From Cohaesibacter intestini (GTDB lineage: Bacteria; Pseudomonadota; Alphaproteobacteria; Rhizobiales; Cohaesibacteraceae): a DNA stretch of 64,000 nucleotides. The notes under the pieces were generated by a model. That model was given only the letters and a program-made list of their open reading frames with translations. It ran no database searches and was not told the origin of the DNA. The translations under genes were made by a program, and so were the position numbers. Every line of letters starts with the position of its first letter. Position 1 is the first letter of the stretch. The stretch is taken from assembly GCF_003324485.1 (NCBI RefSeq), contig NZ_QODK01000001.1, forward strand, positions 1,178,001 to 1,242,000. The letters run 5' to 3'. Below, piece by piece: positions 29,713 through 31,536 of the stretch.

Positions 29713-30255
29713 ATGAGTGATCTCTGGGTGTTTGGATATGGGTCCCTGATGTGGCGGCCGGGCTTTGATTATTTGGAAGCCCATATTGCCGATCTGCAGG
29801 GCTATCACCGCTCGCTTTGCATCTATTCTCATATCCACCGGGGCACGCCGGAGGTGCCGGGGCTGGTTCTGGGGCTTGATACCGGGGGGCATAGCATGGG
29901 CATGGCCTTCCGCGTCGCCGAGGAAAAACGCGATGAGGTGATGGCCTATCTGCGAGCGCGGGAACAGGTGACGATGGTCTATCTGGAGCGCACAGGCGCG
30001 GTGCGTCTGCTTGATGGCCCGACAGCGGAAGGGGGGCGCATGGTCGATGCCGTGATCTATATTGCCGATCACAGCCACCCGCAATATGCAGGCAAACTAT
30101 CGCTTGATGAACAGGCGGCCTTCGTGTTGCGCGGCCATGGCCAATCGGGTCCGAATATCGATTATGTGCTCAACACGGTGGATCACTTGCGGGACATCGA
30201 TATCGAGGATGCAGAGTTGTTTGCGCTGGCGGAGCGGCTGCGGGCCAATGGCTGA
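29713..30255 (+). CDS. ChaC-like gamma-glutamylcyclotransferase
   Basis: 180 residues of the ChaC family, which cleaves glutathione to 5-oxoproline and Cys-Gly. The phosphate/substrate loop FGYGSLMWRPGF (7-18) and YLRAREQVTMVYLE are present, and the length is usual. With gloB and the gamma-glutamyltransferase this is the third glutathione-related enzyme of the window, though the genes are not linked. Start ATG at 29713 (MSDLWVFGYG). Confidence 0.87.
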   Translation: MSDLWVFGYGSLMWRPGFDYLEAHIADLQGYHRSLCIYSHIHRGTPEVPGLVLGLDTGGHSMGMAFRVAEEKRDEVMAYLRAREQVTMVYLERTGAVRLLDGPTAEGGRMVDAVIYIADHSHPQYAGKLSLDEQAAFVLRGHGQSGPNIDYVLNTVDHLRDIDIEDAELFALAERLRANG

Positions 30256-30293: not shown

Positions 30294-30650
30294 TCAGGCG
30301 GGGATCTTGAACTCACTGCGGTCTGGTGCCTCACCAAGATCGCTTACGACGCGCGCGCGCTCTTCCTCGCCACCGGCCAACAAATGGACATAGGCGGAGA
30401 GATGCATGAGGGCGGTATCGCTCATGTTGCTCAAGACCTTCGGCGTCAGGTCTTCGATCGCGCCGATCCACTGGATTTGCGGGTGAGAGCTTTCTTCGCT
30501 GGCCAGTATCAGGACGCAGTCGCTGAAGCTGGCAATGTCATCCAAGGCAATTTGGGAAAAGACATAGCGTGCCTCACCGCTTCCCTGCCAATAGCAGAAA
30601 CGGCTGTTCAGGCTGTCCTTGGCCAGATCTCCCTTCGGTCTTGATGACAT
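30294..30650 (-). CDS. 118-aa protein of unknown function under a predicted SOS box
   Basis: 118 residues, soluble, no signal peptide or membrane helix. An N-terminal beta-rich part (RFCYWQGSGEARYVFSQI, about 17-34) is followed by an acidic, helical C-terminus (LSAYVHLLAGGEEERARVV). I do not recognise a family. The ATG at 30650 has an ideal AGGAGG site. Its promoter carries a perfect GTTC-N7-GTTC LexA box overlapping the predicted -10, so the gene should be induced by DNA damage. A role such as checkpoint inhibitor or DNA-repair accessory is conceivable but not supported by sequence. Confidence 0.75.
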   Translation of the reverse strand: MSSRPKGDLAKDSLNSRFCYWQGSGEARYVFSQIALDDIASFSDCVLILASEESSHPQIQWIGAIEDLTPKVLSNMSDTALMHLSAYVHLLAGGEEERARVVSDLGEAPDRSEFKIPA

Positions 30651-30684
30651 GACGTCCTCCTGAGGTCACATTCCGTCAGAATGA

Positions 30685-30699
30685 GAACAAAAATAGAAC
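30685..30699 (-). promoter_or_regulatory. SOS (LexA) box, GTTC-N7-GTTC
   Basis: On the minus strand GTTCTATTTTTGTTC, an exact match to the alphaproteobacterial LexA consensus, 34 bp before the ATG at 30650. It overlaps a -10 TATTTT (30690-30695) that stands 17 bp from a -35 TTGCTT (30713-30718), the classic geometry for LexA repression. Confidence 0.8.
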
Positions 30700-30789
30700 A
30701 AATTTGCTTGAAAAGCAAGCTGATCTCTTCCTATATCATGTAGACCCTGATGTGCAGAATACAAGATATGGTGATCGCTCGTCAAAAAA

Positions 30790-31536
30790 TTATTCCTCTG
30801 GGGCCGGTTTGGCCTGTTCCGCTCTTGCTTCGGCAATCAGGCGATCGCTGTTGGTCTCGATGGTTTGGGAGACTTGTGCAAAGAAAACATCCTGATCCAG
30901 ACCCGGAGCGATCGGAGGTAGGATCTCGACAATGATCTTGGCCGGATAGAGCAAAAAGGAATGGCGGGGCCAGGCGAGGCCGGTGTTGAGCGCGACGGGA
31001 TAGCAGGGCACATTGAGCGCCTTATAAACATGGCTGATGCCATATTTATAGACCGGCTCGGCATCGAGCGGACGGCGGGTGCCTTCCGGGAAGATGATCA
31101 GCTGGCGGTTTTCCTGCATGCGTTGTCTGGCGTTTTCGAGCATTTGGCGCAGGGCTTTTGCCCGGGCACCGCGATTGATCGGAATCATTTCGCCACGGGC
31201 CACCGCCCAGCCAAAGAGCGGGATCCACATCAGTTCGCGCTTGAGGATGAAAAGCGGATCCTTGACCAAGGGCACCAGCGCAAAGGTTTCGAACACACTC
31301 ATATGCTTGGCGGCCAGAATGAGGCTCTGATTTTGCGGCAGATTTTCAAGGCCGCGCACTTCATAGGAGCCGCCGACAATCAGGGTGAGAAGCTTGGTGC
31401 AGAGGGCCGCCCAGAAACGAGCAATGGCAATCACCCCGAAACGGCGAAAGGGCAGGGTCAGCATGCAGGCAAGCAACAAGATGAAGGTCACCACATAAAA
31501 GGCAATGTGATAGAGCAACGACCGGACGAACAGCAT
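30790..31536 (-). CDS. plsC: 1-acyl-sn-glycerol-3-phosphate acyltransferase
   Basis: 248 residues, two N-terminal hydrophobic helices (about 5-30, 40-57). Makes phosphatidic acid from lysophosphatidic acid. Catalytic motif I reads KHMSVFE (H78-x4-E83) with Glu in place of the textbook Asp, a variant seen in other proteobacterial PlsC; motif III FPEGTR (150-155) is intact, and PVALNTGLAWPR fits motif IV. It lies downstream of the DUF218 and ftsX genes in the same direction. Confidence 0.9.
   Translation of the reverse strand: MLFVRSLLYHIAFYVVTFILLLACMLTLPFRRFGVIAIARFWAALCTKLLTLIVGGSYEVRGLENLPQNQSLILAAKHMSVFETFALVPLVKDPLFILKRELMWIPLFGWAVARGEMIPINRGARAKALRQMLENARQRMQENRQLIIFPEGTRRPLDAEPVYKYGISHVYKALNVPCYPVALNTGLAWPRHSFLLYPAKIIVEILPPIAPGLDQDVFFAQVSQTIETNSDRLIAEARAEQAKPAPEE

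Follow-up and report, generated by a model that had tools for sequence, protein, structure and literature searches.

A conserved small gene under a putative SOS box in the Hyphomicrobiales encodes a predicted degenerate relative of the GIY-YIG nucleases

The window, that is, the whole 64-kb stretch of Cohaesibacter intestini DNA that was analysed, contains a gene for a small protein preceded by a putative LexA-controlled promoter. The features of the locus are the following:

30294..30650, minus strand: putative SOS-family gene, its 118-aa product being a degenerate GIY-YIG domain (ATG start, exact open frame, AGGAGG)
30656..30661, minus strand: Shine-Dalgarno AGGAGG, from the sequence
30685..30699, minus strand: predicted LexA (SOS) box GTTCTATTTTTGTTC, by motif match, kept with its 7-nt spacer at 84/118 orthologues
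30690..30695, minus strand: -10 element TATTTT, within the box, from the sequence and the consensus of 85 orthologues
30713..30718, minus strand: -35 element TTGCTT, with a 17-bp spacer to the -10, in a register fixed among the boxed orthologues
30790..31536, minus strand: plsC-like acyltransferase, upstream neighbour (context only), near the gene in 76/118 loci
29713..30255, plus strand: ChaC-like gamma-glutamylcyclotransferase, convergent downstream neighbour (context only), near the gene in 80/118 loci

An original prediction made for this locus had placed a 118-aa gene at 30294-30650, with GTTC-N7-GTTC lying over the -10, 34 bp between box and ATG, and a start preceded by AGGAGG. All these elements were found exactly as described: the frame is open from its ATG on the minus strand, the TTGCTT-17-TATTTT promoter has its -10 covered by the box, the distance from the end of the box to the ATG is exactly 34 nt, and the AGGAGG is in place. 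In the window, the gene probably forms a transcription unit by itself, since a promoter of its own precedes it and the next gene downstream is convergent. A second promoter-like pair, TTGACG-18-TATTCT, was detected at 30756-30785, upstream of the putative SOS promoter, and could give basal expression.

The box is the sole exact GTTC-N7-GTTC within the window. However, a match of this kind is expected 1.52 times in the shuffled window, with at least one match in 84 of 100 shuffles, and the whole genome holds 76 exact matches versus 254 for the same pattern read backwards. With around 1.5 matches per 64 kb expected by chance, a single box is by itself no evidence for SOS control. The box could then be a chance match, or the site of another regulator, in a gene that is not SOS-regulated; the simple expectation of one exact match per 64 kb is in line with this, and so is the absence of the box in two species of the genus (L003 and L005).

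The comparison of orthologues argues strongly against such a reading. For this, 118 non-redundant homologues with upstream DNA were used, their start codons being picked by rule. GTTC-N7-GTTC was found in the 220 nt preceding the domain in 84 of the 118, whereas spacers of 4, 5, 6, 8, 9 or 10 gave 0-4 matches in the same set and six permuted tetramers gave 0 or 1. As a control, the box in either orientation was present at 14/326 other genes of the same loci (4%). With both orientations counted, 88 of the 118 homologues were boxed, or 89 with a wider range (around 75%), and the boxed homologues are spread over 24 of 31 families. The consensus box over 85 boxed orthologues is GTTCTATTTTTGTTC, also given as TGTTCTATTTTTGTTCTCATG, and, counted from the box, the -35 has its T at -19 in 65 of the 85, its T at -18 in 68 and its G at -17 in 57. 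The inspection of upstream regions proposed in the original prediction thus showed a box that is kept in about three quarters of the homologues rather than absent from them. Conservation raises the box far above chance, and its presence, its register with the promoter and its conservation are all strongly supported. We rejected an origin by chance or through another regulator, and give it hardly any credit, in view of the tests with other spacers, permuted tetramers and control genes, the fixed distance to the -35 and the finding of the same motif at lexA, both in the window's own genome and in ten tested genomes.

In around 35 of the 85 boxed orthologues (e.g., L094, L107, L136 and L163), exactly 2 nt separate the end of the box from the ATG. 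Since the -10 of these genes is within the box, leaderless SOS messages are predicted for them.

On the protein tree, the box would have been gained or lost around 8 times, versus 26 in shuffles. No box was detected in the 240 nt upstream of the domain in 29 of the 118 orthologues, most of them in one clade, and the largest box-less group is a single clade formed by families f2, f9, f12, f19, f26 and f34. A different LexA motif in the box-less clades was considered and rejected: lexA in the box-less clade keeps GTTC-N7-GTTC where its upstream DNA is readable, as it does in 10/10 tested genomes with readable upstream DNA. Because lexA retains the motif there, it was probably the SOS control of the gene that was lost in this clade, and not the motif that changed. 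One member of family f9 (G027) has no LexA above the cut-off in its assembly, and its orthologue (L121) is without a box.

In the window's genome, the exact GTTC-N7-GTTC also precedes lexA and the genes that we take, from their translated sequences, to be recA, comM, tagI, ruvC, imuA and imuB. T-rich SOS-like boxes were further seen near an unrecognised frame (L242, G000:C4:408114) and near a gene resembling phosphoenolpyruvate synthase (L238, G000:C3:717184); these boxes, GTTCACATTTTGTTC and GTTCTTGTTTTGTTC, respectively, mark possible further LexA targets. Regarding the 118-aa gene, the regulation originally claimed for it gains from the conservation of the box, from the promoter register and from the identical motif upstream of this genome's recA and lexA, and a putative LexA repression, as read from the DNA, is strongly supported.

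When 60 relatives were searched, the gene turned up in 17/17 other searched species of the genus and, elsewhere in the order, in scattered families. With a profile, 150 of the order's 248 searched genomes proved to carry it, with one copy each, whereas 289 genomes sampled from the class gave only two carriers outside the order. Where the flanks are long enough, most loci have the gene between plsC and the convergent chaC; several box-less orthologues are among them, so that they are true orthologues at an old locus. Relatives of the family were searched for in viral contigs and phages, and none were found. The sole locus given by the contig scan (L085, from Boseongicola) was discarded as a homologue, the matching frame being short and lying opposite a longer frame on the other strand. 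From this distribution and from the boxes, the gene is an order-wide, single-copy SOS gene and a putative member of the LexA regulon.

The original prediction also stated that the protein matches no known family. This holds for direct scans, since the 118-aa protein gave no match in Pfam, NCBIfam, PHROG, PADLOC or PDB sequence scans, but not for profile comparison through intermediates, which leads to the GIY-YIG superfamily. A plasmid search with a distant family member retrieved WP_231146028.1 of Bradyrhizobium barranii, named as a GIY-YIG nuclease family protein, with a tblastn E of 3e-8 against a family member. Its annotated start (L196:4890-5360, NZ_CP088103.1) cuts off a W-x-G-x-S-G motif; upstream of this start the frame stays open, with an ATG ahead of the motif. 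When read from upstream of the annotated start, the protein has a W-x-G-x-S-G-x-x-Y segment followed by an intact core (NYV, AIYVG, DRL, H, E, PLN). More intermediates in which the W-x-G-x-S-G N-terminus is joined to a GIY-YIG core were obtained from further genomes.

In profile comparisons, the 118-member family matched the nine intermediates with 99.6% probability (E 7.6e-24, 98 columns), and the nine intermediates matched UvrC N-termini with 97.0% (E 1e-10, 79 columns), with reversed and column-shuffled decoys at 1.6% or less. The value was 98.0% for the family against the four most canonical intermediates, and 94.9% when the window's own family was used alone. The intermediate profile by itself retrieves UvrC from whole genomes, one of the hits being confirmed as TIGR00194 at 1.7e-35. 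As the family, when aligned directly with UvrC by hhalign, gave no signal (0.2%), the claim of ancestry relies on a two-step chain through the intermediates. A single-sequence AlphaFold model had a pLDDT of 49, too poor for a fold search. Descent of the family from the GIY-YIG nuclease superfamily is, on these profile comparisons, strongly supported.

The active site is where the family departs from its relatives. The window protein has L, W, K, V and a gap at the positions of the canonical Tyr, Tyr, Arg, Glu and Asn, thus keeping none of the five catalytic residues. Among the 118 members, 60 keep none, 41 keep one, 17 keep two and no member keeps more, while all five are kept in 5/9 of the intermediates, in such a way that the loss of these residues is strongly supported. 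For this reason, with 0/5 in the window protein and at most 2/5 in any of the 118, we file the protein as a derived GIY-YIG relative and not as a GIY-YIG nuclease. The gene shows a dN/dS of 0.21 against the nearest species and of 0.04-0.07 in other pairs of the genus, and persisting purifying selection is strongly supported; selection maintains the protein for something that is not canonical cleavage. With 10 K+R versus 18 D+E, it is acidic, which is atypical for a DNA binder. A catalytically near-intact GIY-YIG relative was found in another genome (L202, G128:C6:911954-912262) with GTTCTAGATATGTTC shortly upstream, the degenerate orthologue of the same genome (L140) being without a box; in that genome, it may be the active relative that is under SOS control.

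Several positions are highly conserved in the family, with W21, G23, Y29, G63, H89 and D104 kept at 91-98%. They open the main rival explanation, in which the family is still an enzyme whose new active site, built from R28, Y29, H89 and D104, cuts or processes nucleic acid during the SOS response. H89 (97%) and R28 (82%) fit such a site, as both are conserved in the family and variable in the catalytically intact relatives, and Y29 (98%) and D104 (97%) could complete it. Nevertheless, the last two are also conserved in intact nucleases and may be structural, and no known catalytic motif is matched, so that we consider a new enzyme unlikely.

The reading that we favour, and regard as likely, is that the gene encodes a LexA-repressed GIY-YIG pseudonuclease that does not cut DNA and that binds DNA or a repair partner, assisting, guiding or restraining repair nucleases. 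LexA at 30685-30699 would cover the -10 of a sigma-70-type promoter, and upon DNA damage RecA-promoted cleavage would remove it, giving rise to a short monocistronic mRNA. The product, which consists of one GIY-YIG domain extended at its N-terminus by W-x-G-x-S-G-x-x-Y and is apparently deprived of all five canonical catalytic residues, would cut no DNA by the GIY-YIG mechanism and would bind damaged or branched DNA, or a partner such as UvrB; once bound, it would assist, guide or restrain the repair nucleases during the SOS response. LexA binding, induction, the binding of DNA or a partner and the effect on repair are steps that we infer. More tentatively, a repair-nuclease domain without catalysis may have taken on a new, damage-induced task, in which it regulates UvrABC or the recombination nucleases without cutting; R28, Y29, H89 and D104 may then mark a new functional site. 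A repair accessory was one of the two roles originally suggested; it fits the GIY-YIG ancestry found, and its molecular role is one that we infer.

The other suggested role, that of a damage-induced cell-division inhibitor functionally analogous to SulA, SidA or DidA, gained no support. Other bacteria do have small SOS-induced division inhibitors, and ftsEX lies a few kilobases from the gene in the window, but ftsEX belongs to a general conserved neighbourhood together with plsC, chaC and tyrA, and for this reason its nearness does not speak for a division function. Moreover, the protein derives, according to the profiles, from a DNA nuclease superfamily, no match to a known division-inhibitor family (SulA, SidA, DidA) was found in the Pfam scans, and the membrane segment of SidA and DidA is missing both from the window protein (maximum Kyte-Doolittle 19-residue mean of 1.3) and from 113 of 118 relatives at a Kyte-Doolittle threshold of 1.6. 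We therefore regard a division inhibitor as very improbable.

The non-cutting pseudonuclease proposed here can be compared with known systems. Through the intermediates, the family shares its domain with the GIY-YIG superfamily (PF01541), which comprises the UvrC N-terminal domain, Cho and the small UvrC-like COG2827 proteins, and it keeps the strand-strand-helix order, the YIG glycine and the register of the helix that bears the catalytic Glu. Unlike the PF01541 nucleases, it has lost the Tyr, Tyr, Arg, Glu and Asn, carries an extra N-terminal W-x-G-x-S-G-x-x-Y and gives no direct Pfam match. The B. barranii plasmid protein WP_231146028.1 shares the N-terminal motif and the domain, but has its five catalytic residues intact and lies on a plasmid among transposases; no SOS box was found within 10 kb around it. 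Caulobacter CC3518 is, in the sections of PMC1839093 considered, a small UvrC-like COG2827 endonuclease with an SOS box, and so resembles the product of the window gene in being a separate GIY-YIG-type protein whose gene has an alphaproteobacterial SOS box; going by that description, the window family is set apart as a different, degenerate branch with an N-terminal extension. E. coli Cho, a UvrC homologue that is catalytically competent and acts in nucleotide excision repair, falls outside the window family. As an SOS-induced protein with a GIY-YIG domain, described in the same sections (PMC1839093), it offers a functional precedent, and CC3518 can be seen as another. For the SOS regulons of Caulobacter and multi-chromosome alphaproteobacteria, the sections considered of the literature do not mention the family, which may nonetheless be listed under a generic name in the gene table in Figure 4 of PMC3323433.

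The Hyphomicrobiales include plant symbionts, methylotrophs and animal pathogens, and to our knowledge many SOS genes outside E. coli are without an assigned role. A conserved and so far unnamed gene, with a testable ancestry, would be added here to the putative SOS regulon of the order. Catalytically dead nuclease relatives under predicted damage control in many families would imply that the fold of a repair nuclease is used for binding or regulation and not for cutting.
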